Positions 4,578 through 43,129 of a stretch of DNA of 64,000 nucleotides are shown here, piece after piece. The translations under genes were made by a program, and so were the position numbers. Source of the DNA: Prochlorococcus sp. AG-409-P01 (lineage in GTDB: Bacteria; Cyanobacteriota; Cyanobacteriia; PCC-6307; Cyanobiaceae); the NCBI GenBank assembly GCA_003215335.1, contig QCKM01000001.1:124001-188000 (forward strand), given 5' to 3'. The number at the start of each line of letters is the position of its first letter. Position 1 is the first letter of the stretch. Below the pieces are notes generated by a model. That model made no database searches. It was not told the DNA's origin and saw nothing but the letters and a program-made list of their open reading frames with translations.

Positions 4578-4595
4578 TTTTTTATCTGAACCAAC

Positions 4596-14189: not shown

Positions 14190-15368
14190 GTGCTTTTGAG
14201 CTCGCCTAAGAAAAAAATAATTTGGGCTTGTTTATTGGCATTGCTGCCAGTGCAGGCCTTTTCGGCTTCTTTGGAGCCCAGTATTTCCGAACCAAAAATT
14301 AGTTCTCATAAGGCTGACCCTAATCATTTTTCAGAGAACGGTGGTTATATTCTCGGTGCAGGCGACAGACTACTTATAGATTTATTAGCAGTCCCTGAAT
14401 TCTCAGGCCAATACACAGTTGCTCCGGATGGGGGGTTGATTCTGCCAAGGGTTCGGAAGATTTTGGTAGAAGGACTTACAATAGAAGAACTAAGAAACAT
14501 TTTAGTAGAAAAATATTCTGAATTTGTTGTTGATCCTGATGTCTATGTGACTATCTCAAGTTATCGGCCAATCAGAGTATATGTAGGGGGAGAGGTTCAA
14601 AGACCAGGTTATTACTTTTTAAGCGTTAGTTCAGCCACTGAAGGTAATTCAGGATTAAATAGACTTGAAGATGATAATCTTATTAGACTTCAACAACCTA
14701 GTGAAGACAGTATTCCACCTATTCCTGGAGACCTTCAGAAAATAGGAGTCAATAAAGGTTGGAAAATTCCAACAGTATTTGATGCTCTTCGTACAGCGGG
14801 GGGGGTAACACCTTTATCAAAACTTGCGGATGTGAAGATTACAAGAAAGCGTGCAAAGATTGCTGGAGGTGGAAAGATTCAGGCGAAGGTCAACTTCCTT
14901 AGTTTAATTACAGAAGGCGATGAATCACAAAATATACGTTTATTTGATGGAGATTCAATAATCGTTGGGAAGTCAGAAGTTGAGCTTAGAGATCAAATTA
15001 TACAAGCAGGACAGACTAATTTAAGCCCACAGTTCTTCCAGGTATATGTAACTGGACGTGTAAGAGACCCTGGAGTGAAAGTTTTAAGGCAAGGTTCCAG
15101 TCTTGATCAAGCTCTTGCGGCGGCTGGCGGGCAAAAACTTTTGAGAGGTAGGGTCGAGTTTGTTAGATTCAACAGAGATGGATCAACTGAAAAACGCAGA
15201 TTTTTTTATAGTAGTAGCGTCGCGGCAGGTGAATATAGGAACCCTGTTCTCATGGCAGGAGATGTGATACGTGTAAATGATTCACCTTTTTCGGCAGGGG
15301 TTAAGATCTTAAACGAAATAACAGGTCCAACTTTAAGCATTTATTCTTTATATAATATTTTCAAATAA
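14190..15368 (+). CDS. Polysaccharide export outer-membrane protein (Wza-like)
   Basis: The 392-residue protein starts with GTG and has a signal peptide (basic KKK, hydrophobic WACLLALLPVQAF, then SAS). Residues ~50-130 match the polysaccharide-export domain (YILGAGDRLLIDLL, later YVGGEVQRPGYYFL), and further SLBB-like repeats follow (VYVTGRVRDPGVKVL). These proteins form the outer-membrane channel for capsule or exopolysaccharide export. No lipobox Cys is visible, so unlike Escherichia coli Wza it may not be a lipoprotein. Its stop overlaps the start of the Wzc-like gene by one base (TAATG), so the channel and its inner-membrane partner are coupled. Confidence 0.88.
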   Translation: MLLSSPKKKIIWACLLALLPVQAFSASLEPSISEPKISSHKADPNHFSENGGYILGAGDRLLIDLLAVPEFSGQYTVAPDGGLILPRVRKILVEGLTIEELRNILVEKYSEFVVDPDVYVTISSYRPIRVYVGGEVQRPGYYFLSVSSATEGNSGLNRLEDDNLIRLQQPSEDSIPPIPGDLQKIGVNKGWKIPTVFDALRTAGGVTPLSKLADVKITRKRAKIAGGGKIQAKVNFLSLITEGDESQNIRLFDGDSIIVGKSEVELRDQIIQAGQTNLSPQFFQVYVTGRVRDPGVKVLRQGSSLDQALAAAGGQKLLRGRVEFVRFNRDGSTEKRRFFYSSSVAAGEYRNPVLMAGDVIRVNDSPFSAGVKILNEITGPTLSIYSLYNIFK

Positions 15369-17143: not shown

Positions 17144-17146
17144 CAA

Positions 17147-18241
17147 ATGGCTCGTCTGCTCATAACTGGAGGAGCTGGGTTTATAGGTAGTCATACATGT
17201 GTCGTTTTGCTTGAAGCAGGGCACAATTTATTGGTACTCGATAACTTCTCAAACAGCTCTCCTGTGGCTCTTGAGAGATTGAAAAGCATTTTGAATTTGA
17301 ATGATAGAGATTCTGCGTCCAGGCTTCAAGTTTTCCAAGGTGATGTACGCGATATAGATCTCCTTGAGAAGATCTTTGAGAAATCAGAGCTACAGTCAAG
17401 CCCAATTGAAGCTGTGATTCACTTTGCTGGATTAAAAGCTGTTGAAGAATCTGTCCATGACCCACTTGGATATTGGGATGTCAATGTCTCTGGTTCTCGT
17501 ACACTTCTTGAAGTCATGGATAAGCATGATTGTAAAACTCTTGTTTTTAGTAGCAGTGCAACTCTATATGGCTACCCGGATATAGTTCCTATTCCTGAAA
17601 GTGCACCAATAAATCCAATTAATCCTTATGGGGCGAGCAAAGCCGCGGTTGAAATGATGTTGGCAGATGTCGCAGGTTGCTTGAAAGATAGAGGAATTAA
17701 GCAGGCTAGTACTACCGGTTGGCGTATTGCTCGGTTGCGCTACTTTAATCCAGTTGGAGCTCATCCAAGCGGATGCATTGGTGAAGATCCCAATGGTGTC
17801 CCAAATAATCTTTTCCCATATGTAAGTCAAGTTGCTATTGGTCGACGTGGAACTTTGCAGGTTTTTGGAAGTGATTGGCCAACTTCTGACGGGACTGGGA
17901 TTCGTGATTACATCCATGTAATGGATTTAGCGGAAGGTCATAAATGTGCTTTAGATGCACTTGTTGGAAGTGGGCCACAACTTTTGACTCTTAATTTAGG
18001 AAGTGGTGTTGGTTCGTCAGTCCTTGAGGTGATACGTGCATTTGAAACTGCTAGTGGTCGAGAAGTTCCATATAAGATTGTTGAACGTCGACCCGGAGAT
18101 GCTGCTATTACAGTGGCTGATCCAACCCTTGCATATAAATGCCTTGGGTGGAGAACACGAAGAGGGCTTAACGAAATTTGTAGGGATGGTTGGGCATGGC
18201 AGTTTGCCAATCCTAATGGCTACAAAGGTGAGGTTGCCTGA
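17147..18241 (+). CDS. galE: UDP-glucose 4-epimerase
   Basis: A 364-residue extended SDR: LLITGGAGFIGSHTCVVLLE at the N-terminus, LVLDNFSNSS after it, HFAGLKAVEESV, and YGASKAAVEMML giving the YxxxK pair. The C-terminal part contains the GalE-type IRDYIHVMDLAEGH segment. It interconverts UDP-glucose and UDP-galactose for surface glycans. It starts three bases after the Wzc-like gene and its TGA overlaps the ATG of the outer-membrane protein gene (TGATG), so four genes form a tight plus-strand operon. Length is slightly greater than in E. coli GalE (338), with an insert around residues 60-70. Confidence 0.92.
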   Translation: MARLLITGGAGFIGSHTCVVLLEAGHNLLVLDNFSNSSPVALERLKSILNLNDRDSASRLQVFQGDVRDIDLLEKIFEKSELQSSPIEAVIHFAGLKAVEESVHDPLGYWDVNVSGSRTLLEVMDKHDCKTLVFSSSATLYGYPDIVPIPESAPINPINPYGASKAAVEMMLADVAGCLKDRGIKQASTTGWRIARLRYFNPVGAHPSGCIGEDPNGVPNNLFPYVSQVAIGRRGTLQVFGSDWPTSDGTGIRDYIHVMDLAEGHKCALDALVGSGPQLLTLNLGSGVGSSVLEVIRAFETASGREVPYKIVERRPGDAAITVADPTLAYKCLGWRTRRGLNEICRDGWAWQFANPNGYKGEVA

Positions 18242-20313
18242 TGGCCTTGTTGCGTTTTCAAGGCCGCTTGATGTTGGCTTCACTCCTCATTCAACTTGTG
18301 CATGTGTCAAGTGTGCGAGCAGACTCTCTAGATCAGGATTTTCAGGGACATCAAAAAGTCTCTAAATCAGAAGTGAATGCTCAATCAAGTGAGTCTTCAT
18401 CTGACCAGGACTTGACAGTAAGACAAACCGTTAATTGGGAACCTCTTGTTGTAGGCAGCAAGTTGAATTCAACTCCTACTAAGGATTCAAGTGAAACCAT
18501 TATTTGGGAAGCTGTCCCAAACAGTCGAGATAGCGATCAAACTTCTATTAAGTGGGAAGTCATTGATGAACAAGATACAAAAAATTCTTCTGATGTCGCT
18601 GAGGGTGATGTAAACCAACATTCAGTAGTCATTCCACGAACTGCTCAGGAGGCAGAAGATTTGCTGAGGCGAATGGCTCCTACTGAGGACGACTTTCAAC
18701 TCCCTTTGCGGCTTGGCCCTGCTGTTCCTACTGCTAATCAATTGCCAGTGCCTGAGGTCCAATTGAGCACTATGCAATTGTCTCCATTTAGTGGAGGAGA
18801 AGGCGGTGGAACAGGGAACCAGAATTATGCGGTCTTTTTTGATGTTGGCTTTACAGAGAGTGTGCAACTTTCTGGTTTTTATTCTCAGGCGGATGATCCC
18901 CTTTTCGCTCCTATGAAAGGGTTCTCAAAACAACCAGGTAATTTGTGGGAAAGTTATGGGGGATCAATTCGCTGGCGTGTGGCGAGCGATGGCAGTGGTG
19001 ACTATCCAGGAAGTCAAGGGAAGATTTGGAACCTTGCTATTTCAGGTTCTCTTGAGGGTTGGCATGTAGGAAGTGGTGGTTGTGACTCTTTTCAATGCAA
19101 GGGACAAGATGATTACAGTCCCAATATTTTTAATGATTCAGGAAAAAGGGTTTCCACTACTAACCTGATTGGTTCTGTAGCTGTTCCTTTTAGTTGGAAT
19201 GTCTCTCCTAAATGGCAATTGAGTATTGCTCCAGGCGCAAGCTTTTTGCCTGCTACTCAAGGGGAAGGCCAGGGAGGCTCAGGGACTTTTTATGGAAATA
19301 ATGTTTGGCTTTCTGGAGGTGCGTTGTGGAGGCCGATCTCTCATGTAGAGCTTTTTGGCTCATCATTAGTACCTTTTGGCCCTGGGACCAATAGCTTTGA
19401 TGAAAGCTTGAACTTCAGCAGGGTACCAATTTTTACAGGAGGCCTGAATTGGAGGATTAATCCACGCATTGGTTTGGAAGGGAGTCTTACAAATGGTTGG
19501 GGTGCAAGTCCTGCTACGGCACTCTTGTCAATGCCTTCATCTAATCAGTTGGGTTATTCAGCACGTTTTCACTACACTGCGGGAGCAGCAGATAGCCCTC
19601 AGCCTCTTCTGACAGAACGTCAATTTTCTTTGGCTACAGGTGGTTTAACTGTAAATACAGCATTAGTTCCACCTGATAAACATACACAGATCTGGTTCAA
19701 TAATGATAGCAATGGCAATGTCTTTGGCTTTTGGGGACATTCAATATCGAATGCTTTTCAATTGGATTTATATCAAGGAGGATTTTTTAAAGGTTTGAAT
19801 GTTGTTGGCGGGGAACCTTCAGAAAGTCTTGCTAATACCTTTAGTACAAATGGGGGTTGGAATTGGCGAGTTGGTGGTAAAGCAGTAGCTTTTAGTCCAT
19901 TGCGAGGTGCACCTCTTTGGGGAGGAGGTCGAATTAGCCTTGGTCGTAATAATGATGCAACTAGTTATCAGGGATATGTTTTTGCAGAAACGATGAATAC
20001 TTGGGAAGCGAATACTTGGTTGGCTTTAAATGTCAACCCCAAACTTGCCTGGAGCGGAGTTGGAGAACCTTGGGGAGTTGGCCTTGGTGCCAACATTCAA
20101 CTGGGACAATCATTCCAATTGATTCCTGAAATCAATTTGGTTGGATCTCAACTTGAAGCGAGTAATGCTACTTTCGCTTTGAGATGGCTTGCAAAGTCAA
20201 AGTCTATTTACTTTGATTTGTATGCTAGTAATGCAGCAGGTCTGCTTGACATGGGGCAATTGATGCGTAGTCAGGATATTCGATATGGAGCTCGAGTTAG
20301 TTTTATCTTCTGA
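18241..20313 (+). CDS. Large outer-membrane β-barrel protein of unknown function (capsule export context)
   Basis: The 690-residue protein begins with a signal peptide (LMLASLLIQLVHVSSVRA, cleavage near ADS). Residues ~30-160 are acidic and Ser-rich and hold three spaced copies of an aromatic motif (VNWEPL, IIWEAV, IKWEVI). The rest is rich in Gly, Trp, Ser and alternating hydrophobic strands and ends with GARVSFIF, a terminal Phe typical of substrates of the BAM machinery. This pattern supports an outer-membrane barrel. It overlaps galE by one base, in an operon with Wza/Wzc-like genes, so a role in capsule assembly or surface display is likely but unproven. I do not recognise a named family. 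Confidence 0.65.
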   Translation: MALLRFQGRLMLASLLIQLVHVSSVRADSLDQDFQGHQKVSKSEVNAQSSESSSDQDLTVRQTVNWEPLVVGSKLNSTPTKDSSETIIWEAVPNSRDSDQTSIKWEVIDEQDTKNSSDVAEGDVNQHSVVIPRTAQEAEDLLRRMAPTEDDFQLPLRLGPAVPTANQLPVPEVQLSTMQLSPFSGGEGGGTGNQNYAVFFDVGFTESVQLSGFYSQADDPLFAPMKGFSKQPGNLWESYGGSIRWRVASDGSGDYPGSQGKIWNLAISGSLEGWHVGSGGCDSFQCKGQDDYSPNIFNDSGKRVSTTNLIGSVAVPFSWNVSPKWQLSIAPGASFLPATQGEGQGGSGTFYGNNVWLSGGALWRPISHVELFGSSLVPFGPGTNSFDESLNFSRVPIFTGGLNWRINPRIGLEGSLTNGWGASPATALLSMPSSNQLGYSARFHYTAGAADSPQPLLTERQFSLATGGLTVNTALVPPDKHTQIWFNNDSNGNVFGFWGHSISNAFQLDLYQGGFFKGLNVVGGEPSESLANTFSTNGGWNWRVGGKAVAFSPLRGAPLWGGGRISLGRNNDATSYQGYVFAETMNTWEANTWLALNVNPKLAWSGVGEPWGVGLGANIQLGQSFQLIPEINLVGSQLEASNATFALRWLAKSKSIYFDLYASNAAGLLDMGQLMRSQDIRYGARVSFIF

Positions 20314-20322: not shown

Positions 20323-21741
20323 TTATCTACTTTCAAGTAGCAGTTTGATCCCATTTGTAGAACGAAGAGTTAATCGACCTGTCAGGTTGGGTTTGTGATC
20401 AGAAACTGGCAAGATCCGATAACGTCGAACCAACTCGGCTAGAACAAGTATGGCTTCTTGCTGAGCGAAAGCTGCACCAGGACATTTTCTAGGCCCTAGT
20501 CCAAATGGGAGGAATGCGTCTTTTGCCCAACGACAATCTTTTTGCTCTAAAAAACGTTCTGGTTGAAAATGGTTGGGTTCTGGCCAGTGCTTTTCATGAC
20601 GTTGTATTACCCATGGAGAAAGGGTTAGCAGTGCCCCAACAGGACATTGTTTTTTGCCATCGGGAACAGAAAACTCTGTTGAGTCTTGAGTGCGTTCGCG
20701 AATGAAAAAACTTACTGGTGGATACAACCTAAGGGTTTCATTGAACACTGCTCCACAGTATTGAAGTTTACGAATATCATCGCTCGTCAGCATTGATGTT
20801 AAAGGTCTATTCTTTACCACTTCTAGAACTTCGCTTCTTACCTTTTCTTGTATTGATGGGGAAAGTGCTAACAACCAAGTGGCTATCCCTAGAGAACTTG
20901 CAGATGTTTCGTGGCCAGCAAGAAAAAGGAAGCAGATTTGGTCTACGAGTTCTTCAGATGAAAAGCTTGTTTTGGTTTTTGTATCATTTGCGGTGATTAG
21001 GCAATCAAGAATATCGATTGGCTTTGAAGGGTTGGGAGGGGTGACCTTGTGAACTTTTAATCGTTCTTCAATCGCACTTTGAACCCAGTTTCGAATAATG
21101 GCAGCATCGTTGAGTAAGGTTTTTTGTAAAAATCCCATTGGGAGTTTTAGGAATCTCAGCACAAGTGCTCTTCCCGCTTGTTGTTGATAGCGAGCAAAGG
21201 CTTTGAAGATTTCAGTTGCTTCTCCTTGTTCAAGTGGCCGGCTAAGAATCGTACGTACTATGACATCGGCTGTGACTAGGGTCATCTCAGCATCAATATC
21301 AATAGGCCCATTATTGGCTTGACTTTTTAGACGTGTTAATAGTGATGACGTTGCATCTGCCATTGCTGGAAAAACTTGCCTTAGTTTTGCAACCTGAAAG
21401 GCTTGGTCAATTAGTCGCCTTTGTCTTGCCCACTCCTCCCCATTAACGGAAAAAATTGCATGTCCTATTAGTGGCTCAAGAATCCAAAGTGTATATGGGT
21501 GTTTTGGAAATTTTTCTACCTCATCTACTAGTATTTGACGAACTAGAGGAGGATTATTTACAAGGAAAACTGGCAGGCCAAGTAAGTTAAGTTCTCCTAA
21601 GTTGATACGAAAATCCCATTCATTCAGAAGGCCAAGCCATGATTTCCACCCAAGTCCCAACCTTTTAAAAATATTAGTTGTATAAGGCTTTGGTTTAGGC
21701 CAGGGTGGAATAAGCTTTTCTTTTGATGGAGTTTCATTCAT
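20323..21741 (-). CDS. Cytochrome P450
   Basis: The 472-residue protein carries the P450 signatures in order: the I-helix AGHETS near residue 275, ETLR (ExxR) near 333, PERF near 395, and FGLGPRKCPGAAFAQQE with the heme-ligand Cys at about 420. The preferred start is the ATG at 21741; an earlier TTG at 21768 would add nine residues. It overlaps the hydrolase gene by a few bases and is last in the minus-strand cluster. P450s hydroxylate fatty acids, terpenoids and other hydrophobic molecules with O2 and reductant; a hydroxylase acting on the PKS-derived chain is the main guess, but the substrate is not shown by the sequence. Confidence 0.9.
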   Translation of the reverse strand: MNETPSKEKLIPPWPKPKPYTTNIFKRLGLGWKSWLGLLNEWDFRINLGELNLLGLPVFLVNNPPLVRQILVDEVEKFPKHPYTLWILEPLIGHAIFSVNGEEWARQRRLIDQAFQVAKLRQVFPAMADATSSLLTRLKSQANNGPIDIDAEMTLVTADVIVRTILSRPLEQGEATEIFKAFARYQQQAGRALVLRFLKLPMGFLQKTLLNDAAIIRNWVQSAIEERLKVHKVTPPNPSKPIDILDCLITANDTKTKTSFSSEELVDQICFLFLAGHETSASSLGIATWLLALSPSIQEKVRSEVLEVVKNRPLTSMLTSDDIRKLQYCGAVFNETLRLYPPVSFFIRERTQDSTEFSVPDGKKQCPVGALLTLSPWVIQRHEKHWPEPNHFQPERFLEQKDCRWAKDAFLPFGLGPRKCPGAAFAQQEAILVLAELVRRYRILPVSDHKPNLTGRLTLRSTNGIKLLLESR

Positions 21742-22888
21742 TGGAATTTCTTTGAGAGTCGCCAACAAAGAGCCTTGTCAGATCAACTCGACTGCAGGTG
21801 TTTCGTAAGTAGTCGAAATGAATGTCAAATTGATGTGAGAGAAGTTCATGACGATGTCTAAACCCTCTAGCCATAGCAAGGTTGATCAGCTCCATCTTTG
21901 GGTATGACTGGCCTTTTGGTCCATGTAAGCCACAGCTCTCGTAAGGGTTGACTCCAGCAAAACAAAGTAAGTCTTGGTATGAGGTGACATCTCTCCAGGG
22001 GAGAATTGGCTCAGTGGCTAATTCTTCAAGGTCTTTACGAAACTCATGAGCCCCTGGGTATAACGACAAATTGGCTAGATTCTGACCAAGTGTTAGTAAT
22101 TCTAGTCGACCCAATAATGATTTGGACTTGGGGTGGCGGTGTAACTCAGCTGCCACCATTGCAAGCACGAAGCTTCCACTACTATGCCCGATTAATCTAA
22201 TTGCTTTAGCAGGGCATTGTTGCTCCAAAATTAATACTTCATCAGCTAAAGTCTTAACCTTGTTACGTAGTGCTGAGTCACGAGCTTGACCAAGTTGATG
22301 TGTGAAAAGAATTGAGCGTGTCAGCCAAATGACACCTAATCTTTCTGCCATATTCCAAGCTTTCCAAAGAGTTATAAGTGCGACCAATAAACAAGAAATT
22401 AATTTAAACTCAAAGAATGCTGTGACTACGCTTAGGCCCATAAAAGACAACCCAGAAGTTACTATTGCTAAAACAAGTGAAAAAAAGATAAAAAGTAAGG
22501 GGTATGCTCCGCAAAGTGCAACACCTGGACAGAGTTTGGCCAGGTGAATAAAACAACCTTTTGCTAAAAAGAAGTAGGCATAGTGTGAACACTGCTTGAG
22601 CAGCTCTAGTGGTTTTCGAGGCCAGTTTTCTCTTGCAATATCATCCCAGTGGAGAAAGCATAATTCGGATGTAGACCTTTTGAAATCATTATTTCCCTGA
22701 TCTTGTTTTAAATCTAGAGGCCATCGAGTTATATTTCCATTACTGATACGTTTACCAAGAGCCCAACCTCTTTCCTTCAGTTCGATTTGAAAAAGCTTTT
22801 GATAATGGTTTGATCCTCTGGGATCGAAACCACTTATGAAATAGTTACGACAGGAAGGGTTGGCACCCCAGAATGCATTACTGGGCAT
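21734..22888 (-). CDS. Membrane-anchored α/β-hydrolase-like protein
   Basis: A protein of about 384 residues with a hydrophobic central region (two helices including LLFIFFSLVLAIVTSGLSFMG, then LISCLLVALITLW) followed by RLIGHSSGSFVL, which fits the G-x-S-x-G nucleophile elbow of α/β-hydrolases. A possible catalytic His lies near the C-terminal HRHELLSHQFDIH. The preferred start is the ATG at 22888; a GTG at 22933 is an alternative that would leave only 24 bases to the divergent gene's start. Its place next to the P450 and PKS genes suggests hydrolysis or transfer of an acyl chain at the membrane. Family identity beyond the fold is uncertain. Confidence 0.6.
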   Translation of the reverse strand: MPSNAFWGANPSCRNYFISGFDPRGSNHYQKLFQIELKERGWALGKRISNGNITRWPLDLKQDQGNNDFKRSTSELCFLHWDDIARENWPRKPLELLKQCSHYAYFFLAKGCFIHLAKLCPGVALCGAYPLLFIFFSLVLAIVTSGLSFMGLSVVTAFFEFKLISCLLVALITLWKAWNMAERLGVIWLTRSILFTHQLGQARDSALRNKVKTLADEVLILEQQCPAKAIRLIGHSSGSFVLAMVAAELHRHPKSKSLLGRLELLTLGQNLANLSLYPGAHEFRKDLEELATEPILPWRDVTSYQDLLCFAGVNPYESCGLHGPKGQSYPKMELINLAMARGFRHRHELLSHQFDIHFDYLRNTCSRVDLTRLFVGDSQRNSNE

Positions 22889-22957
22889 TGACTTCACACT
22901 TTCGCCATGGTTGTAAATGTCGGATTCAGACACGTGAGATGGAAACGAGCCTCGGCA

Positions 22958-23530
22958 ATGAATGTCGTCTTGATGACATTGATCGTAGGACCATCATGGC
23001 CAGTTGGATCTATTCCTATTAATGACGACAAGGTTCAGATTCATCGTGCTGATGGGATGACCACCGCTTCTGTCAAGGTTGATGTGCCTCTTGCTCGTGC
23101 ATGGGATGTGCTTACGAGTTATGAGACGACAGGTCCACAGATGCCCGATATTAAAAAGGCAAAGCTGATTAGTCGCAATGGCAATGTAGTTAGGCTTCAA
23201 CAGTCTTATCAAGCTCCTTATACATTTGGTTTGAGAGTTGATGCATTACTAGAGATCGAGGAATTGCCGAGGACTCAGATTAAGTACAAAATGCTTCGAG
23301 GTGAATTCATTCGAAGGCTTAAAGGCCATTGGAAGATTGTGCCAGTCAAAGAGGGGATAAATCTTGTTCATAAGATTTATCTAGAGCCTGAAATCCCTTC
23401 GATCTTGCAACCAGTTTTTCTTGAACTTAGCGAGGAGAATCTTCGCCAGTCGATGGAGGCGCTACGGCAATTGATGTTATCGAGTTCAAAAACTCAACAC
23501 CCTGTGGATGCTGAGTTATTCGATAAGTGA
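22958..23530 (+). CDS. SRPBCC/START-like (polyketide cyclase-fold) exported protein
   Basis: The ~190-residue protein starts with a hydrophobic leader (MNVVLMTLIVGPSWPVGSIP) and then has the features of a START/SRPBCC hydrophobic-ligand fold: VKVDVPLARAWDVLTSYETTGPQMPDIKKAKLI at the N-terminus and HKIYLEPEIPSILQPVFLE later. An earlier in-frame ATG at 22907 would overlap the divergent hydrolase gene, so the ATG at 22958 is preferred. It is the only plus-strand gene inside the PKS cluster, and its last 104 bases overlap the 3' end of the glycosyltransferase gene antisense. It may bind or carry a lipid or polyketide product, but the fold is widespread, so this is inferred. Confidence 0.62.
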   Translation: MNVVLMTLIVGPSWPVGSIPINDDKVQIHRADGMTTASVKVDVPLARAWDVLTSYETTGPQMPDIKKAKLISRNGNVVRLQQSYQAPYTFGLRVDALLEIEELPRTQIKYKMLRGEFIRRLKGHWKIVPVKEGINLVHKIYLEPEIPSILQPVFLELSEENLRQSMEALRQLMLSSSKTQHPVDAELFDK

Positions 23531-24644
23531 TTTGTTTCCATTCAACTTTTTTCGCGAAGATAGCTAATAGAGTTGCTAAGCCATTTATAAATTGACCAGT
23601 AATTAAAGCTGAGATCCAGCCCTTTAAAGAGTGGGGCCGTTTTTGCATGGCAATCGTCTCAATCCAGACGAGTAAACCAAGACATCCAAATTCGTAAGCA
23701 GCTAATGCTCCCCAGGCATTATTAATCAGACCAATTAATAGCAATGCACTTGTTCCAAGACCATGCAATAGAACTATTGACCATCTTGGATGATGAAGGC
23801 GAGCAGTTATAAGTTGTCTGGTTATCCATTTGATTAATTGGGAGAAGGTTATTTCGTCATCATGATTAATTGCTAATAACTCTGGCCTAAAAACATATCG
23901 CATACCAAGTTCTTTTAGAGGTTGGAGTAAGCCAGTGTCTTCACAAAGTCCATGCTTAAGAAGAGCTCTCCATGAACTGGTTTCAATGACTTCTCTACGG
24001 ATTGCTAGTGAACCTCCCCAAGGGATGGCTAGTAATGTCATGAGCACTAATGCTCCAGCATTCCAAACCGCTCGAGTCCAGCCAATTAATGAGTTTCTAG
24101 CAGGTATATACCAGCGATTTCCAGATACAGCTCCTACTCCAGGTTGTGAACATGCCTGGATAAGATTGGTCAGCCACTTGGTACCGATTGCCGCATCAGC
24201 ATCTACTAAAGCAATAAAAGAGGAGTCTGGGTGAAGGTTATTAATAGCCAATAGGAGCGAAGCACATTTAAGGGAGCCTTTGGTGGGATAAGTATCCAGG
24301 GAAGTTATTTCAACATCAGACCAGCTTGGTTTGGGGTACTTGTTTTTAGGGTTTGAGCAAATAAATTGCTCGACTACTGGCCAGGATGGATCTGATTTTG
24401 AATCGACAACGATAGTTAATCTCCATTTGCCCAAGTAGTCTTGTTTGGCAAGCGCGTTAAGAACTGCTTTAAGGTTTTGATCAGCTCCTCGCAAACATAA
24501 GATAACTTCGCTATCTGGTAAGCGTTCACTCTTTTGATTTGACCAGTTTTGATGTTCTATTCGCCGGTGATTTACTTGCTTTGCAAACAACCAAACTAGT
24601 AGTGCTTGAAGAGTTAGTGCTATGGCAAAAGCTATAGGGAGCAC
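23427..24644 (-). CDS. Ceramide-glucosyltransferase-like membrane glycosyltransferase (GT2/GT21)
   Basis: The 405-residue protein starts with GTG and a hydrophobic helix (IAFAIALTLQALLVWLF). LRGADQNLKAVLNALAKQDY and IALVDADAAIG give the donor-binding and DxD regions, GNRWYIPARN and LCEDTGLLQPL follow, and further helices lie near the C-terminus (LLHGLGTSALLLIGLI). This architecture matches GT21 ceramide glucosyltransferases and the related HpnI group, which put sugars on lipid acceptors at the membrane. It lies 4 bases after the PKS stop, so it probably acts on the PKS product or on a glycosylated derivative. Its 3' end overlaps the SRPBCC gene by 104 bases. Confidence 0.8.
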   Translation of the reverse strand: MLPIAFAIALTLQALLVWLFAKQVNHRRIEHQNWSNQKSERLPDSEVILCLRGADQNLKAVLNALAKQDYLGKWRLTIVVDSKSDPSWPVVEQFICSNPKNKYPKPSWSDVEITSLDTYPTKGSLKCASLLLAINNLHPDSSFIALVDADAAIGTKWLTNLIQACSQPGVGAVSGNRWYIPARNSLIGWTRAVWNAGALVLMTLLAIPWGGSLAIRREVIETSSWRALLKHGLCEDTGLLQPLKELGMRYVFRPELLAINHDDEITFSQLIKWITRQLITARLHHPRWSIVLLHGLGTSALLLIGLINNAWGALAAYEFGCLGLLVWIETIAMQKRPHSLKGWISALITGQFINGLATLLAIFAKKVEWKQITYRITQHPQGVEFLNSITSIAVAPPSTGEDSPR

Positions 24645-24648
24645 TTGA

Positions 24649-27600
24649 TTAAGGAGATGTAGCTAAAGATCCGCTGAGAAGTGCCTCACTCCATGCACCC
24701 ATGAGTTCATGGAAATCCGGACATCTTACATTTAGTTCTTCGAGAGTCGATTGAGTTGCTTTGCAGCTTGGACGTGCTCGTACACCTAATGCGTTTAACT
24801 CTGGATAGGTGAGCTGCTCTTTGCCCCATCGTTGTTGGAAAAAGGCTCGTAATGGATGTAATGGATTGTTTGAGTCTGCAGAAATTGCTTCCAACCACTC
24901 TTCCATAGAGACGTGTTCCAATGGAGCGCCATCAGAAATGAGTTGACTCAACAAGTCGTTTAACATAATTGGTCGAGGATGTTGTAGGTGAAAGCAACGT
25001 CCTTTTGCACAATTACTCCATGCAAGAGCAGTGACTGCATCAGCAACATAATCAACTGGTACTAAATCTAGTTCCCATGCCAGTTGAGGGGCCTTGCCAA
25101 GAGCTAGACAACCTTGCAGTAACCTCTGAAGTAAATCTCCTTCATGCCATAGCCCATTATGAGAGTGACCACCAATTAAAGGTGGTCGATAAACTGCGAT
25201 TGGTAAGCCTGCTTTGCCTGCCTCAAGAATTAACCTTTCACTTACCCATTTGGTTTGTGAGTAGCCGATGTGAATATCTTGCCAATCAGTCAAGTCATCA
25301 CTTTCCAATATCTCACGATTGCGATAGGCGGATGCTTCGAAAACTGACACGCTGGAGATCATCTCTACTCGTAGTGGATTTGCAAGAGTGGCAAGCCTTA
25401 AAATTTCTTTAGTGCCCCCAACATTTGCAGAGGAAAGCTGGGCATAAGAGGCCATTTGGCTCAGTTGAGCTCCGTTGTGAAGAATTCCACCAAGTCCTTC
25501 GGTGATTTTGTCAAAAGCTTCAGATTCAAGACCAAATCTTGGAAGAGCTAAATCTCCAAGAATTGGCGATATTCTTTCTTCCCAACTTGATTTCCAGAGG
25601 CCATAACGACTGAGATTTGATTTGATTCGGTCAAATCCATTTTTCGTTGATTGGGCTCTTACCAAGCACCGCACTTCTAGTTCAGGCCAACGATTAAGTT
25701 GCCCTGCTAATAGGAAAGCTCCAAGAAAACCTGAGGCACCAGTCAGGAAGATTGATTGACCAGGGTGCAACACTGCAGGTTGCGATGGACATTGCCAATC
25801 CGCAGGGAGCTGTGCTTCTGATGCCAGATTTAGTGATTGGTTCTCTTGTCTCCAACCTTGAGGTGTTAATTGATTTAGGGCTAATTTTGCTAGTCCATCT
25901 AGGCTTGGATCGTCGGTTAAAGCTTCAAGATCTAGACGTAAGCCAAGGTCTGTTTGAACAATTGCGGCAAATTCAACGGCCATTAGTGAATCTAAGCCTA
26001 GATTAAATAAAGAGGCTCCTGGATCAATGGATTCAGGCTCTAATGAATCGTCGTCAGAGTCAGAAGCCATAACACGTGCCAAGCGTTCCCTGAGGGCTTC
26101 CATGAGGAGTACTTGACGATCAGACTCCGGTAGCGATTGTAATTTTTCCCAAAGCAACTCTGCAGGAGAAGGCCCTACTTTCTCAAGCAATTCTGAAAAC
26201 CATTCGCGTTGTCTTGGTGAGGCTTGTGAAGCGATTTTTGACCATTCATTATCTAATACTGATATGACTCCACCTTTACCTCGCTCTAACAGTTCTCCAA
26301 GAATTTTCAAGGCTTCTTGAGGGTTAAGCATGCCTACCCCAACCCTTTCAAAACGTTGTTTTAGCCCTGAAGCCATTCCATCACCACTCCAAGGACCCCA
26401 TTGAATTGCTAAACGCATAGGCCTTTGAGATCCATCTTTGCAATAGCTTTCCATAGCACTATTGGCTGCTGCATAAGCAGCCTGACCAGGTGAGCCAAGT
26501 AACGAAGCAATGGAGGAGAATGCCACGAGGAAATCCAGGTCAAAACTATTTTCGAGTAGTGATTCCAAATAAAGCCATCCACCAAGCTTTGGAGCGAGCA
26601 CTTCGTCTAAGCAGGTTTTATCCATTCGTGAAATGAAACCATCACGAAGCACACCAGCTGCATGAAAAACTCCCCGAAGAGGTTGATGAGATGGGAGTTG
26701 ATTAAGCGCATCGAGTATCAATTTGCTTTGCGCTGAATCTTGTGACTTATTTTTTGATAGATCGCATGCAATTCGTAGGCACTTGACTCCTTTGCTTTCG
26801 ATATTCCTGAGAACTTCTAAAGCTTTTTGACTCGGTGTTTCAACCGAGCGCCCTATTAAAACTAATGAGCGCGCACCTTGATTAACAAGCCAAGGTAGAA
26901 GCTCTAAGCCAATTCCTCCAAGAGCCCCTGTAATTAGATAGCTCGCATCTGGTCGGATAGTAAGGGGCTTTGGTTTTGGACTATGACTTATTACCACCTT
27001 GCCGATATGCTTTGCTTGAGCGAGGTATTTAAAAGCTTCGTGGTGGCTTTCTAGAGGCCAAACTTGCTGTGCAATATGATGTAGAGACCCATTATTTAAA
27101 TCTTCAGTCAACTGTCTAAGTAGACGATTTAAATAAGCAGGGTTTGCTGAAGCAACTTCTAATAGGTCAAATGGTAGATAAGTTGCATCTGGCCGGCGAA
27201 CGGCAGCCTCATCTTTGCTCCATATCTCAATTTTTCCAAGCTCAATGAATCGCCCACCCTTAGAAAGCGAACGGAAGCTTGCCTCTACCCATGGACCTTT
27301 GAGACTATTTAAAACAACGTCTACACCACGATTATTTGTGTGAGCTAAAACCTGATCGGCAAAATCTGTACTTCGTGAATCGAATACCGCTTCTATACCT
27401 TGTTGCAAGAGAGCAGCTTGTTTGTTTTTGCTTGCAGTCGCAAGAATATGTGCTCCATTACGTTTGGCAATTTGTAGAGCAGCCTGTCCTACTCCGCCGG
27501 CTGCTGCATGAATTAAGACTGTTTCGCCGGGTTTTAATTTTGCCAGGCTTTCAAGGCCGTGAATTGCAGTTAGGAAGGCAGTTGAGAAACTCGCTCCTTC

Positions 27601-30600
27601 CTGGGGAGTCATATTTGGTGGGATGGGTACACAAAGCTCTACTCTTGAGATCACATGACTTGCAAGACTGCCAACTGTCAGTGCAGCTACAACTTTTTGG
27701 CCAAGCAGCTCTGGATCTACTTCGGGTCCAATGGCAGTTACACGGCCAACAGCTTCTCCACCAAATGGCATCTTCGCTTGATTATCAAGACCAAGTGAAG
27801 ATGCATGCTCTTGAAGTAAGCCTAGAGCGTTAAGGACATCCCTAAAGTTCAATCCAGTTGCTTCAACGGCAAGTTCAATTTCACCAGGTAGAAGCTTGGC
27901 TGTTGGGATAGCTTCTTTATGTAATCCTTCTATTCGCCCACTATTATCACTAGCTATTCGATATCGTTCTTGTTCAATTGGTACTAATTGGGGGATATGT
28001 AACTTGTTTTTATCCCAGAGAAGTTCGGAATGATTTTCGGATGCCATCCAAATGTCATCCCAGTCTTTTGGTTTCGGTTGATTTTGAATTTCTTTGGGTA
28101 AGCAAATTGTAGTGAACTGCCAATCTGATTTTTCTAAACTGGCTGTGCGTTGAAAGGCGGTTAGTGCGCTAGCAACAGGTCCATTGCCTTCCAAAACGAG
28201 CCATATTTCAACTTCTTTATTTGAACCTAGTCTTTGTAAGGAGTTCAAAAGCTTCGTTATAGCGCTCTTGGGATCTTCCTTAGAGAGATTTGGCCAAAAC
28301 ACAATTGGATTAGAGTCCTCAGAGATAGTCTCATCGATTGGAATACTGTCTACTGATAATCCCTTTTCGTTAGCCCAATCTTTTAATTGGTTTTTGCTCT
28401 GCTTAGAAGGGCCAATTAAAACGATTTTCTTTTCGTGACTAATAATTGGTTTCTTTGTCGTGTTTGCTGGAAGAGATGTCCACGCGGTGTTGAATAATTT
28501 TGGACCACCACTTGGTAGATCTTTTTGCGGAAATAGAAGGTCCAGAACTGATCGGGTTAGTCTTCGCAATCTCAGGCCTGAAAGATGGCCAAAAGGTATT
28601 CCGTCTTTCTCGAGGACCATGTCGGCTAGCAAAGTCACACCTTCATCTCCAGAAGGCCGTAGGAATGTGTTGCATTGGAAGTGATCAGGTAGTGGCCACT
28701 TGGACAGTTGGACATGATCAACTCCAACCGGAAGAAAAAGTTGAGAATTGGCTACTTCTAAGTCGACACAAGCTGCAACGGTTTGAAAACAACCATCAAT
28801 TAAGCATCGGTCAGGAGCCTCTTGAGGGCGGGCCAGATCTGCCCATGCATTGCCAGGTGTTGCTTTGAGAGCCTTAATTGGACGATAATTTGATCCATAT
28901 CTTAGACCCAGAATCTCCAGACTTTTGTAGAAAGTTGTCGTATCAATTGACAACATCTCATTTGTAGAGGCGTTCTCTAGAGACAGGAATTTTGTGTTGA
29001 TGTTGGTTGAAAGTTTTGGAGGAAATGTTACTTCTCCATGACGTAGCCAATTTGTTTGAGATTCATCTTGACTGTGGAAATTGAGAGTTTCGTTTTCAAG
29101 CAAGGCATGTAATTTATTGTCTTCTTTGTGAAGTCGAAGAGGTGCTTCTAGTTGGAAAGACTTTAAGCAAATGGGTTGCCTTTTTTCTTTGCGGAGATCG
29201 AGTGCTAAAGCGATATATCCTGCTGCAGGAAAAACAACCCAATTTCGGATTTGGTGATCAGTAAGATCAGAAGATGGGTTTGTTAGTAGTGAGGCCTGGA
29301 AGTGTTCGGTTTTGCCAGGGAGTTGAAGTGCTTTGAGTTTGCAGTGCTCATCGGTGGAAGAATTACCCGCACCATTACCTTTGCCTAAGTGATTCAGCCA
29401 GAGACTGGCCTTCCCATGTTCTTTGTCTAATTGACTCCACCAAAAATGTTGGCGATTAAATGGGTGTCCAGGTACTGAGATTTTTTGATATGGGAATGAG
29501 GAATGTAGATGCTGCCAGTCAACCTTTAGGCCTTTCCCAAATGCCGCGGCAATCGCTTCTAGTTGTTCGCGACCTTTGTCTCCTGCAAGGCCAAGCTTTA
29601 TAGCTTTAAGGGATTCATCAGAAGGTTTGTTTGAGCTGCCTGTTAAGGAGGCTTCGCCACGTATTACCGGAGGTGATTGTCCATTTAGTTGAGCTAATAA
29701 TTCATCACGATCTTTTCCTATCGCGATGAAACGATGAGGGAAAATGCTTCTCCCCAAATTAGTACTTGCACAAAGGTCATTAAGGTTTAGTTGGGGGTTT
29801 TGCTTAATAAGCTCTGAATAACTTGAAATTAATAAATCAAGAGCGGATGGAGTTCTTGCAGATAAAGAGAGGATATAGAGGGGAGGATTAGTAATAGATG
29901 ATCTTTTCTCTTCTAATGAAGAGTTGGGAGGATCAGTTAAAACTGCGTGAGCATTTGTTCCACCAAATCCAAATGAACTAACACCAACCACTAATTGTTC
30001 ATCTGGTTTCGGGAAGTGTTCAAGCTTAGTTTGCACTTTTAAGCTGAGTCCTAAGAAATCGATAGAAGGGTTGGGAGTGTGAAAGTGCAAACTTGGTGGG
30101 AGTCTCTTCTCGCGGATACATAAAGCTGCCTTAATAAGCCCTGTAATACCTGCAGCTGTTTCTCCATGACCCAAGTTGGTCTTGACTGACCCCACTCGAC
30201 AAGGTTCGTTTTCTTGACGCCCTTTACCTAAAACATTTCCAAGTGCTCTCAATTCGATTGGATCACCTTGTCTAGTTCCTGTTCCATGGGCTTCTACGTA
30301 TTGAGTGTGTTTTGGATTGATTCCTGCTTTCGTATATGCCTCACGAACGCAAGCCATTTGTGATCTTTGACTAGGTGCTGCAAGACCTTGACTTCGACCG
30401 TCAGAATTAATTGCTGTTCCTCTTATTAAGGCATGTACTTTGTCTTTGTCTCTGATGGCGGCAGAAAGTGGTTTGAGCAATATGACTCCAGCTCCTTCAG
30501 AACGAACGTATCCATTCGCTTCAGCATCAAAGCTTTTACATTTTCCGTCTGGTGAGAGAAGTCCAGCCTTGCAAAAACTCATTTGGATGCCTGGATGAAT

Positions 30601-31233
30601 CAGTGCTTGCACACCACCAGCAAATGCAAGCTCTGATTCGCCACGCCAAAGGCTTTCACAAGCCAGGTGGACTGCTACTAGCGATGAAGAACATGCAGTG
30701 TCGACCGTAAAGCTAGGACCTTTTAAATCAAGAAAATATGAAAGACGATTTGCAGCAATACAACCGGTGTTGCCAGGGAGAATAAATGGTTCATTATCTG
30801 GGGTCGCGTAATTCTCTTCAGAAGTCCAAAGAAGTGAGCTGTAGTCAGCACTGGAAATGCCGATGAATACCCCAACTTGGCGGCCCCTCAATGTTTCAAG
30901 TGGATGGCCAGCATCTTCTATCGATCGCCATGCGACTTCTAGGAGAAGACGTTGTTGAGGGTCCATGCAAATTGCTTCACGTGGAGTTATTCCAAAAAAG
31001 CCAGGGTCAAACAAATTGATGTCTTCTAAGAACCCCCCATGACGTACGTGCTGAGTTAAGGGGTTCTTGGGATCTGAATTGAAATGTGTGGAGAGATCCC
31101 AGCGATCAGCAGGAACTTCTGTAATAGCTTGCTCCCCATCACGCAACATTTCCCAAAATTTTTCAGGTGAGTCAATTCCACCAGGCAAACGGCAGCCAAT
31201 ACCAACTATTGCGATTGCTTCAGGGGCTGACAT
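24649..31233 (-). CDS. Single-module reducing type I polyketide synthase lacking an AT domain, with terminal reductase
   Basis: The 2194-residue protein has: ketosynthase (~1-430; VDTACSSSL with Cys181, EAHGTGTRQGDP, NLGHGETAAG); a linker (~430-600) that runs into YQKISVPGHPFNRQHFWW with no AT signature (no GHSxG); dehydratase (~620-900; HQIRNWVVFP with Gly replaced by Asn, and DGCFQ); MDR-type enoyl reductase (~1090-1400; HAAAGGVGQAAL); ketoreductase (~1420-1620; TGALGGIGLELL, AYAAANSAMES); ACP (LGLDSLMAVE, Ser1749); and a thioester-reductase domain (~1820-2190; TGASGFLG, GYSQTKW). Such a set should build a fully reduced chain and release it as an aldehyde or alcohol. Malonyl loading must come from a separate transacylase. 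It overlaps the GT28-like gene by one base upstream. Confidence 0.92.
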   Translation of the reverse strand: MSAPEAIAIVGIGCRLPGGIDSPEKFWEMLRDGEQAITEVPADRWDLSTHFNSDPKNPLTQHVRHGGFLEDINLFDPGFFGITPREAICMDPQQRLLLEVAWRSIEDAGHPLETLRGRQVGVFIGISSADYSSLLWTSEENYATPDNEPFILPGNTGCIAANRLSYFLDLKGPSFTVDTACSSSLVAVHLACESLWRGESELAFAGGVQALIHPGIQMSFCKAGLLSPDGKCKSFDAEANGYVRSEGAGVILLKPLSAAIRDKDKVHALIRGTAINSDGRSQGLAAPSQRSQMACVREAYTKAGINPKHTQYVEAHGTGTRQGDPIELRALGNVLGKGRQENEPCRVGSVKTNLGHGETAAGITGLIKAALCIREKRLPPSLHFHTPNPSIDFLGLSLKVQTKLEHFPKPDEQLVVGVSSFGFGGTNAHAVLTDPPNSSLEEKRSSITNPPLYILSLSARTPSALDLLISSYSELIKQNPQLNLNDLCASTNLGRSIFPHRFIAIGKDRDELLAQLNGQSPPVIRGEASLTGSSNKPSDESLKAIKLGLAGDKGREQLEAIAAAFGKGLKVDWQHLHSSFPYQKISVPGHPFNRQHFWWSQLDKEHGKASLWLNHLGKGNGAGNSSTDEHCKLKALQLPGKTEHFQASLLTNPSSDLTDHQIRNWVVFPAAGYIALALDLRKEKRQPICLKSFQLEAPLRLHKEDNKLHALLENETLNFHSQDESQTNWLRHGEVTFPPKLSTNINTKFLSLENASTNEMLSIDTTTFYKSLEILGLRYGSNYRPIKALKATPGNAWADLARPQEAPDRCLIDGCFQTVAACVDLEVANSQLFLPVGVDHVQLSKWPLPDHFQCNTFLRPSGDEGVTLLADMVLEKDGIPFGHLSGLRLRRLTRSVLDLLFPQKDLPSGGPKLFNTAWTSLPANTTKKPIISHEKKIVLIGPSKQSKNQLKDWANEKGLSVDSIPIDETISEDSNPIVFWPNLSKEDPKSAITKLLNSLQRLGSNKEVEIWLVLEGNGPVASALTAFQRTASLEKSDWQFTTICLPKEIQNQPKPKDWDDIWMASENHSELLWDKNKLHIPQLVPIEQERYRIASDNSGRIEGLHKEAIPTAKLLPGEIELAVEATGLNFRDVLNALGLLQEHASSLGLDNQAKMPFGGEAVGRVTAIGPEVDPELLGQKVVAALTVGSLASHVISRVELCVPIPPNMTPQEGASFSTAFLTAIHGLESLAKLKPGETVLIHAAAGGVGQAALQIAKRNGAHILATASKNKQAALLQQGIEAVFDSRSTDFADQVLAHTNNRGVDVVLNSLKGPWVEASFRSLSKGGRFIELGKIEIWSKDEAAVRRPDATYLPFDLLEVASANPAYLNRLLRQLTEDLNNGSLHHIAQQVWPLESHHEAFKYLAQAKHIGKVVISHSPKPKPLTIRPDASYLITGALGGIGLELLPWLVNQGARSLVLIGRSVETPSQKALEVLRNIESKGVKCLRIACDLSKNKSQDSAQSKLILDALNQLPSHQPLRGVFHAAGVLRDGFISRMDKTCLDEVLAPKLGGWLYLESLLENSFDLDFLVAFSSIASLLGSPGQAAYAAANSAMESYCKDGSQRPMRLAIQWGPWSGDGMASGLKQRFERVGVGMLNPQEALKILGELLERGKGGVISVLDNEWSKIASQASPRQREWFSELLEKVGPSPAELLWEKLQSLPESDRQVLLMEALRERLARVMASDSDDDSLEPESIDPGASLFNLGLDSLMAVEFAAIVQTDLGLRLDLEALTDDPSLDGLAKLALNQLTPQGWRQENQSLNLASEAQLPADWQCPSQPAVLHPGQSIFLTGASGFLGAFLLAGQLNRWPELEVRCLVRAQSTKNGFDRIKSNLSRYGLWKSSWEERISPILGDLALPRFGLESEAFDKITEGLGGILHNGAQLSQMASYAQLSSANVGGTKEILRLATLANPLRVEMISSVSVFEASAYRNREILESDDLTDWQDIHIGYSQTKWVSERLILEAGKAGLPIAVYRPPLIGGHSHNGLWHEGDLLQRLLQGCLALGKAPQLAWELDLVPVDYVADAVTALAWSNCAKGRCFHLQHPRPIMLNDLLSQLISDGAPLEHVSMEEWLEAISADSNNPLHPLRAFFQQRWGKEQLTYPELNALGVRARPSCKATQSTLEELNVRCPDFHELMGAWSEALLSGSLATSP

Positions 31234-32354
31234 TAATTCAACTCCAATATCATTTTTCGAATTCCATCGCGATCATTGATTAAAGGATTTTCGTTATAGA
31301 TCTGTTTTAGAAGTAATTGTTTCTTAGGGTGATTGAGCCAATCAACAATTATCTTGAGAAGATGTTCAGGATTATCAATGGCTACGTCGATACCCATTTT
31401 AAAGAAGTAACGTCTGGCTAATAATTCTTGAGGCATGGTGCTGCCAAATCCATTAAAGATAAGGATGCAACCAGCAGCTAGGGCTTCAGTTGCTGTTCGC
31501 GCGCCAGGCCTTGTCACCATTGCCCATGCTTTGCGATAAAGCCGGGCCATCTCTGAAGGGCTTTGGAAGCCAAGAGCTTCTGCAGATAGTTGCGGGTGGG
31601 AGTGGATCCATTTGTCTAGCTCTGCTTTTGCAGTTGCACGTTTACCACATAATGCAATTACATGAATTCGACCCGAAAGAGGCAGCAGGGTATTTAGTAA
31701 TTCCACATGATTATTAGATCCGTTAGCACCAGTGCCTAAAACAAGGATTGGCAAGGAGGATGAGTTCTGATTTTTGTATAAAGGCTCTTCTATTACTTTT
31801 TCAAATGTCGGATCAAATAAAGGGCCTAGAACAGCTATTCGATCTTCTTGATATTTTCGACTTTTTACCTCCTGTGCGACTTCTGGGGTGATAGCCCAGA
31901 ATTGATCAGCTTTTGGGCTTACCCAGTTCCGACTAAAACCAAAGCCACCATCAAGTTCAGTGCAGCATGTTATGCAGCGCAGTGAAGGTCCAAGCACTCT
32001 TTTCGCTAGATCGAAATGACCTCTATTGATGTGTGGGTGAGTTGAGATTATGAGATTAGGCTGCAAACGTTTAAGCAAGCGAATTAAATAAGGTCTTCCA
32101 AAAAGTACAGTGCCAGGCTTCCAAAGATCTTCAAATTCGACGAACCGCCAATAAATCTGATGTAATTTTGGGAAGTTTTTCTGTATCCAGTTATATAGAT
32201 GCACACCTTTCCTTAGTACTGGGCTGGAGTTTTCAAGCAAGTGCTCTACCCATACTGAGCCGCATGGATCCCAGTCTTTTAACCAAGATCTGAGTGCATA
32301 GGCTGCTGCATCGTGAGCAGTACCACCACTTGATGTAAGAATCAGAACCCTCAT
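31233..32354 (-). CDS. MGDG-synthase-like GT28 glycosyltransferase
   Basis: The 373-residue protein resembles monogalactosyldiacylglycerol synthases and MurG (GT28): N-terminal VLILTSSGGTAHDAAAYALRSW, a His-rich STHPHINRG segment, and the C-terminal donor loop TRPGARTATEALAAGCILIFNGFG. The fold transfers a hexose from a nucleotide sugar to a lipid at the inner leaflet. It is shorter than plant MGD1 and close to cyanobacterial lipid glycosyltransferases. It abuts the MFS gene and overlaps the PKS start by one base, so it is co-transcribed with them. Glycosylation of the PKS-derived chain is the best inference; galactolipid synthesis for thylakoids cannot be excluded from sequence alone. Confidence 0.8.
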   Translation of the reverse strand: MRVLILTSSGGTAHDAAAYALRSWLKDWDPCGSVWVEHLLENSSPVLRKGVHLYNWIQKNFPKLHQIYWRFVEFEDLWKPGTVLFGRPYLIRLLKRLQPNLIISTHPHINRGHFDLAKRVLGPSLRCITCCTELDGGFGFSRNWVSPKADQFWAITPEVAQEVKSRKYQEDRIAVLGPLFDPTFEKVIEEPLYKNQNSSSLPILVLGTGANGSNNHVELLNTLLPLSGRIHVIALCGKRATAKAELDKWIHSHPQLSAEALGFQSPSEMARLYRKAWAMVTRPGARTATEALAAGCILIFNGFGSTMPQELLARRYFFKMGIDVAIDNPEHLLKIIVDWLNHPKKQLLLKQIYNENPLINDRDGIRKMILELN

Positions 32355-33737
32355 TTAGGTAAGGATCTCACTCCTGCGATTGAAAGCTAGGTTCTTTCTC
32401 TGACTAGCAAGGGAAAGAATTAGTACCCAGCCAATTGCCCCAAGAGCGATTGCGATCTCACGACCTTGATCGACCCCTAACGCTGTTACTAGCCAGGTTG
32501 GCCAGTATGTTGCTGCTAGTGCAGGCTTGAGTAATTTGTCTACTGCCAGGCTGATTATAAGAAAAGCTATTAATCGAGCGGACCATTCAAAGCTGTACCG
32601 CAAAGCAAAAAGACGAGGCAAATCCTTTGCAGGACTGAGCTTTACCCATAGTTGCTGCAGTGAAGCCATTACAACAGGAAGAGCAGCAGTGAAAACAACA
32701 ACTCCTGCAAACCATATTTCGGTCTTGTCAGCAAAGAACTGCAAACCTGCTCCCATAAGTATTAGTGCTTGAACAACAATTGCAGTTCGCCAGTAACGCT
32801 GCCATCGATGGCCAACGCCTTGGCTCCAAGCCAAGTATCCCAGTCCATAACCAATAACACCAAAAAGAAGGACCTTTGCCATTCTTTCAGTTCCATAAGT
32901 GAGCGCTACCCATGCAGGGAACAAAACTTCTGTAGCTGCGTAAGAAAAGGCAACCGTTGTTCCAATGACTAAAGCAACCCTTGCCATGGGCATTGTCAAC
33001 CAAAATTTCTTTAACTCAGTCCAAAAAGTTAATGGATTTGCCTTGACCCATCGGCTTCTACTTTGACTAATAAAGCTGAATTGATTGGACCATGGGGCAG
33101 CAAGTACACAGATGAGTGCAAGGAAAAAACTAGCTGCATCTATAGCTAAAACACCGCGCAATCCAAGCCAACCAGCCAGCCAAGTGCCTATAAAAGGAGC
33201 CATGGCAAGGATTAGTCCGTCTGTAGTGGCAAAAAGGCCATTTGCTTGAATAAGTGTTGGCCCATCCTCAATCAGTAGTGGGATCAAGGTGGAGAAACTT
33301 AATACCAAAATGGCTTCCGCCATTGCTGCTACAGCCTGGATTAAAAGCAATGGTAAAAGGAAAGGAATGCTGTCATGACGCAGCAGAATTAAAGCAAGGA
33401 ATAGAGTGCAAATAGCTCCAATCCCGTTCGCGACAAGCATTATTTTTTTTCTTGGAAAGGCGGCGAGTTGGTTGGCTAGAAGAGGAAGGGCCAAGATCCG
33501 AGCTAATTGGACTACTAGGGCTACCAAGGCGAAATCTGCAAGGCGTTGGGTATTTGTGAAGAACCAAAGCCCAATTCCGTAAAGACTTGTTTGAGTACCA
33601 ATGTTGGAGATAAGTTGCCCAACCCAAAGCCAAAGGAATATTTGCTGTGCTTTTTGGGTAGGCAATTTTTCTATAGCAGGTGTGTTTGGGATTGAAATAT
33701 TTTTTGTAGAGATTGACTTGAGCCTAGGCTTTGACAT
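32355..33737 (-). CDS. MFS transporter
   Basis: The 460-residue integral membrane protein has about 12 hydrophobic helices, a basic loop after helix 2 (FPRKKIMLV) that fits the MFS loop 2-3 signature, and a cytoplasmic N-terminal tail of ~35 residues. It is closest in style to the drug/siderophore exporter MFS groups. It is the first gene of the minus-strand PKS cluster, immediately upstream of the GT28-like gene, with a divergent NDH-SelD gene behind it. Export of the cluster's lipid product, or of a precursor, across the inner membrane is inferred from position. The substrate is unknown. Confidence 0.8.
   Translation of the reverse strand: MSKPRLKSISTKNISIPNTPAIEKLPTQKAQQIFLWLWVGQLISNIGTQTSLYGIGLWFFTNTQRLADFALVALVVQLARILALPLLANQLAAFPRKKIMLVANGIGAICTLFLALILLRHDSIPFLLPLLLIQAVAAMAEAILVLSFSTLIPLLIEDGPTLIQANGLFATTDGLILAMAPFIGTWLAGWLGLRGVLAIDAASFFLALICVLAAPWSNQFSFISQSRSRWVKANPLTFWTELKKFWLTMPMARVALVIGTTVAFSYAATEVLFPAWVALTYGTERMAKVLLFGVIGYGLGYLAWSQGVGHRWQRYWRTAIVVQALILMGAGLQFFADKTEIWFAGVVVFTAALPVVMASLQQLWVKLSPAKDLPRLFALRYSFEWSARLIAFLIISLAVDKLLKPALAATYWPTWLVTALGVDQGREIAIALGAIGWVLILSLASQRKNLAFNRRSEILT

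Positions 33738-42580: not shown

Positions 42581-43129
<549 letters not shown>

Follow-up and report, generated by a model that had tools for sequence, protein, structure and literature searches.

The heterocyst glycolipid (hgl) islands of cyanobacteria have been defined as single clusters with homologues of at least seven of the 19 Anabaena hgl genes, and cyanobacteria without heterocysts make C24 1,3-diol glycosides that are thought to come from such islands (PMC11804610). A second described system is CF-20, a family of polyketide synthases (PKSs) without a characterised product, which is widespread in marine and freshwater picocyanobacteria and keeps a conserved gene order (Calteau et al., 2014, PMC4247773); its main text mentions no product, no loss of the acyltransferase (AT) domain, and no two-gene form (PMC4247773). 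Here we describe a PKS gene cluster at positions 20323-33737 of a 64,000-nucleotide stretch of Prochlorococcus sp. AG-409-P01 (the window), taken from contig 1 of a genome that measures 1.78 Mb. Going by its conserved order and its marine and freshwater spread, the cluster is probably CF-20.

The PKS of this cluster has no AT domain. Our reading, to which we give a probability of roughly 55%, is that the locus is a conserved operon for the assembly and export of a glycolipid, built around this AT-less PKS, which would be loaded by FabD. No report of the AT loss in this PKS was found in the open papers searched (many subscription papers lay outside the search), and the same literature yielded neither a product of the cluster, so that the first-pass annotation's statement that none is described still holds there, nor a cyanobacterial example of an AT-less PKS served by FabD, and this gene set had no match in one survey of P450s in cyanobacterial clusters.

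Gene content and conservation of the cluster

The cluster comprises seven genes, given here from the upstream end of the operon:

32355-33737, reverse strand: MFS exporter, H+ antiporter-like, first gene of the operon (MFS_1 above the Pfam cut-off; related to TIGR00900; position kept in 22 loci)
31233-32354, reverse strand: GT28 glycosyltransferase of the monogalactosyldiacylglycerol (MGDG) synthase or processive diacylglycerol glucosyltransferase (UgtP) kind (Pfam, PRK13609, and PDB matches)
24649-31233, reverse strand: type I PKS of 2194 aa, with the order ketosynthase (KS), no AT, dehydratase (DH), enoylreductase (ER), ketoreductase (KR), acyl carrier protein (ACP), thioester reductase (TR) (Pfam, ketoacyl-synt to NAD_binding_4, and alignment)
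23427-24644, reverse strand: GT21 membrane glycosyltransferase of the ceramide glucosyltransferase or HpnI kind (PF13506 and motifs)
22907-23530, forward strand: SRPBCC lipid-binding protein, with a probable signal sequence and a start that is likely to lie near 22958 (Polyketide_cyc2 above the Pfam cut-off)
21734-22933, reverse strand: membrane alpha/beta-hydrolase-like protein (ABH), assigned by motif, almost confined to genomes with this PKS
20323-21768, reverse strand: cytochrome P450 with an intact heme-Cys motif, likely to start near 21741 (p450 above the Pfam cut-off)

Every open reading frame lies where the first-pass annotation had placed it, and the families it named are confirmed by Pfam, the hydrolase by motif only. 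The tight spacing it described is also real: MFS and GT28 are 0 nt apart, GT28 and PKS overlap by 1 nt, and PKS and GT21 are separated by 4 nt. Counted from the first possible start codons (the true starts probably lie further in), the ABH gene shares 35 nt with P450, and the SRPBCC gene overlaps GT21 by 104 nt and ABH by 27 nt; in every compared locus the SRPBCC gene is reversed.

Both glycosyltransferases fall in lipid-acceptor families. The GT28 protein matches MGDG_synth (PF06925) and Glyco_tran_28_C (PF04101) above the Pfam cut-offs, PRK13609 with 90 bits, and the PDB entries 9wde and 4wyi. The GT21 protein matches Glyco_transf_21 (PF13506) with 28.8 bits, above the cut-off, as does its match to Glycos_transf_2, and its D, DxD, and ED motifs are kept in 29 sequences; an assignment as HpnI itself was rejected (68 bits, against a cut-off of 310). 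ABH has no Pfam match above cut-off (the best, Thioesterase, reaches 16.9 bits and lies below it); its GHSSG motif and its conserved set Ser251/Asp/His372 hardly vary among 26 relatives. A structure of ABH predicted without an alignment had a pLDDT of 41 and was not used.

We searched 400 genomes of the same family for relatives of the PKS (E <= 1e-150) and found a close relative in 48 of them. The genes proved to be conserved together, so that the synteny search proposed as a refutation in the first-pass annotation does not refute it: the complete order MFS-GT28-PKS-GT21-SRPBCC(reversed)-ABH-P450 is kept in 22 picocyanobacterial loci, the window counted, some of them with one or two small genes inserted; in three close relatives MFS and GT28 are swapped. 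ABH occurs in 36 of the 48 genomes with the PKS and in 4 of the 352 others (Fisher 2e-36, an overstated value, since related genomes are not independent), and a search of 292 genomes of the phylum did not find GT28 beyond the family. Because the order is conserved, ABH co-occurs with the PKS, and GT28 stays within the family in this sample, we treat the seven genes as a unit. In a tree of UvrD, the source genome groups with other small-genome relatives. A scan of a genome collection for orthologues returned only PKSs of Flavobacterium and Aquimarina, which were rejected, their KS forming a far-off long branch.

Domains of the PKS and loss of the acyltransferase

The PKS is a single module with a full reductive loop and an ACP, as in type I iterative reducing PKSs, which suggests that it is used iteratively. 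Its parts, all on the reverse strand, are:

29929-31221, reverse strand: KS, residues 5-435, Cys/His/His present (Pfam, alignment)
29566-29685, reverse strand: site of the lost AT, about residues 517-556, where the KS-AT linker joins the post-AT linker directly (alignment)
29434-29565, reverse strand: post-AT linker, retained, ending ...PGHPFNRQHFWW (alignment)
28549-29325, reverse strand: DH, residues 637-895, His660 and Asp813 invariant in 18 sequences (Pfam, alignment)
26986-27957, reverse strand: ER, residues 1093-1416 (domain matches)
26386-26946, reverse strand: KR, residues 1430-1616, B-type Asp kept (Pfam, alignment)
25885-26043, reverse strand: ACP, residues 1731-1783, single copy, GLDSL (Pfam, alignment)
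24703-25752, reverse strand: TR, residues 1828-2177, for reductive release (TIGR01746 with 279 bits, above the cut-off; YxxxK invariant)

An olefin synthase (Ols) was ruled out, as the PKS has no FAAL loading, sulfotransferase, or thioesterase domains. The genome has one candidate phosphopantetheinyl transferase of Sfp size.

PKS relatives from freshwater-type genomes carry the AT in cis (PF00698). In the alignment, 84 residues of this PKS stand against 375-396 in the AT-bearing relatives, so that about 292 residues have been cleanly removed with both linkers kept. The AT-less PKSs come together as a single clade in the tree of the KS (SH-aLRT 99) and again in a separate TR tree (98), surrounded by AT-bearing relatives, and a single loss is therefore the simplest reading. 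Its members include PKSs of low-light Prochlorococcus-like genomes and of a Synechococcus group (g34), to which genome G259 belongs. One further genome, G124 (locus L075), also has an AT-less PKS, yet it groups with freshwater-type genomes in the UvrD tree; it may have acquired the AT-less form by transfer.

The enzyme looks alive by its sequence. The KS Cys/His/His, DH His/Asp, KR Ser/Tyr, ACP Ser, and TR Tyr/Lys residues are invariant in 17 or 18 sequences, and the ratio of nonsynonymous to synonymous substitution rates (dN/dS) between close relatives is 0.14-0.17, indicating purifying selection. Without an AT in cis, malonyl must come in trans. The sole PF00698 match in the source genome is FabD, on another contig. 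In AT-less genomes (12 searched) there is exactly one PF00698 gene, which lies away from the PKS and is FabD-sized in nearly all of them, while AT-bearing or two-gene genomes each have at least two; the fragmented assembly of G124 gives no match. As the only PF00698 gene left in AT-less genomes, FabD is the only visible malonyl loader, and it probably serves the PKS in trans.

Two-gene relatives and other variants

In several genera the PKS is split into PksB (KS-AT-DH-ER-KR-ACP) and PksA (KS-KR-ACP-TR), and PksA is itself AT-less although PksB carries an AT. In the two-gene loci that were read more widely (G237 and G121), GT28, MFS, SRPBCC, ABH, and P450 are present, and there is no GT21. If the last extension lacks DH and ER and the chain is then released reductively, a 3-hydroxy alcohol, and therefore a 1,3-diol head, would be left, so that the domain order of the two-gene form predicts a 1,3-diol product; the one-gene form in the window may give either a plain alcohol or a 1,3-diol.

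Several genomes have a gene for a Rieske oxygenase between PksA and PksB (L035, L096, and L097 among the two-gene loci). In two-gene clusters of one genus (L093, L092, and L099), an ABC/FtsX/HlyD exporter set, reminiscent of hgl export genes, adjoins the PKS. Outside the cassette, a related AT-bearing PKS adjoins a sulfotransferase (L085:8161-9297, also L077 and L078), hinting at a sulfated product. A Synechococcus-group genome (G138, L187:8841-10423) has a decayed copy of the cluster, reduced to GT28 and a KS fragment of the first 140 residues.

Genes beside the cluster

Two further features lie next to the cluster in the window:

18241-20313, forward strand: putative outer-membrane beta-barrel protein, convergent with P450 and 9 nt away from it (signal peptide and aromatic C-terminus by sequence reading; no family match)
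14190-18241, forward strand: genes of Wza-like (Poly_export/SLBB), Wzz-like, and epimerase type next to the barrel gene, a surface-polysaccharide export context outside the core set

In many loci, whichever of the two PKS types they carry, the barrel gene adjoins the cluster, with Wza and Wzz genes beyond it in several where the sequence reaches that far, and it occurs in 35 of the 48 genomes with the PKS, compared with 48 of the 352 others. Strict membership in the pathway is weakened by its occurrence in genomes without the PKS; the gene is a conserved neighbour with a possible role in export. PDB searches with the barrel, ABH, and GT21 proteins returned nothing useful.

Positions 1-14000 of the window have a G+C content of 33-37%, compared with 40-47% in most of the rest, with an epimerase gene at the edge (12886-13908), and are possibly a variable surface-polysaccharide island. 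Of the phycobilisome family the genome has just two genes, both in the window, at 42602-43123 and 43206-43649, which are probably cpeB and cpeA; about 13 such genes occur in Synechococcus relatives. The same two-gene complement is found in genome G010, and it marks the source as a low-light Prochlorococcus.

Proposed pathway and alternative explanations

The gene families fit the sequence of steps first proposed for the cluster, namely chain building, reductive release, glycosylation, hydroxylation, and export. The KS would condense malonyl units iteratively while KR, DH, and ER reduce the chain, held on the single ACP; with the AT gone since the common ancestor of Prochlorococcus and marine Synechococcus, housekeeping FabD would load malonyl onto the ACP in trans. 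The TR would then free the chain as a fatty aldehyde or alcohol; an incomplete last cycle may have left a 3-OH on it, which would make it a 1,3-diol. GT28 and GT21 would attach one or two sugars, P450 would hydroxylate the chain, and ABH might trim or transfer an acyl group; MFS, SRPBCC, and perhaps the outer-membrane barrel would carry the product to the cell surface. More tentatively, and with some doubt on our part, we suggest that the ancestor of marine Synechococcus and Prochlorococcus dropped the AT, wired the PKS to FabD, and kept undescribed surface glycolipids (glycosyl long-chain 1,3-diols or hydroxy-alcohols) through genome streamlining.

Several points weigh against a glycolipid operon. 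The cluster has no known product; the interaction of FabD with the PKS is a prediction from gene content; the PKS has no FAAL or loading domain that would point to a starter; and the MFS exporter is of a drug-antiporter type that would also fit a soluble product. Near the cluster, G259 and G338 lack both ABH and P450, and GT21 was not found in most of the two-gene loci examined, so not every step of the pathway is obligatory.

The type of the exporter, together with P450 tailoring and a patchy spread (48 of 400 family genomes) typical of accessory metabolites, would suit a soluble, secreted, glycosylated polyketide, such as a signal or allelochemical, instead of a membrane or surface lipid; we regard this as plausible but rather unlikely, since both glycosyltransferases belong to lipid-acceptor families, reductive release from a fully reducing module should give a greasy chain, and outer-membrane and polysaccharide-export genes are neighbours. 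These neighbours would in turn suit a lipid on which surface polysaccharide is anchored or primed, made beside the Wza, Wzz, and barrel genes, an idea favoured by the barrel gene's frequent position next to the cluster, two-gene loci included, and by its enrichment in genomes with the PKS. That the barrel gene occurs in many genomes without the PKS implies that it has another job, however, and nothing links the sugar transfer to a capsule, which makes such an anchor improbable.

The missing AT, and the stub of 140 KS residues that G138 keeps beside GT28, could mean that the AT-less PKS no longer elongates, being either a decaying gene or one that only reduces acyl chains from fatty-acid synthesis. 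In 18 genomes the reading frame is intact at 50-65% identity (in one of them a contig end truncates it), all checked KS, DH, KR, ACP, and TR residues are invariant, and dN/dS is about 0.15; these findings speak against such a loss of elongation, and we consider it very improbable. Least credible of all is a true homologue of the hgl pathway. The first-pass annotation had pointed out a resemblance to heterocyst glycolipid synthesis, and as an analogy of logic (PKS, reductive release, glycosylation, export) this stands; as kinship it is already contradicted by the KS tree, in which the KS lies outside the clade of HglE and polyunsaturated fatty acid (PUFA)-type synthases, with starred branches between them. 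The absence of GT28 from the cyanobacterial genomes searched outside the family and the absence of an ABC exporter and of a PfaA-like synthase from the Pfam content of this cluster argue in the same direction.

Significance of the cluster

Few phototrophs are as abundant as Prochlorococcus and marine Synechococcus, whose genomes are strongly streamlined, and yet some of these lineages devote to this pathway about 13 kb that purifying selection maintains. If the glycolipid operon is real, its product would be an undescribed surface glycolipid and a possible biomarker, which may affect grazing, phage contact, or permeability. The missing AT, the two-gene relatives, and the adjacent outer-membrane and capsule-export genes all go beyond the first-pass annotation, whose interpretation is supported in part. 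The PKS also offers a clean natural case of a cis-AT synthase that a single deletion left AT-less; it can be compared with close relatives that carry an AT or have two genes, and is useful for PKS evolution and engineering.

Comparison with known systems

The GT21 protein resembles HpnI (the bacteriohopanetetrol GlcNAc transferase) and ceramide glucosyltransferase in its fold family and in its D, DxD, and ED motifs. As in trans-AT PKSs, the AT is missing in cis and the flanking linkers are kept. Unlike canonical trans-AT PKSs, this PKS most simply derives from a cis-AT ancestor through a single deletion inside the family, its KS nests with cis-AT relatives and not with the trans-AT lineage, and the cluster has no dedicated stand-alone AT, only FabD elsewhere in the genome. 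With the hgl island the cluster shares, at the level of families (not HglT), a reduced chain made by a PKS, release by a thioester reductase, glycosylation, and export (PMC11804610), whereas its KS lineage is different, its glycosyltransferases are GT28 and GT21, its exporter is MFS and not ABC, and it has so far been found in one picocyanobacterial family only. Heterocyte glycolipids and the analogues made without heterocysts have the kind of 1,3-diol head that is predicted for the two-gene form (PMC11804610).

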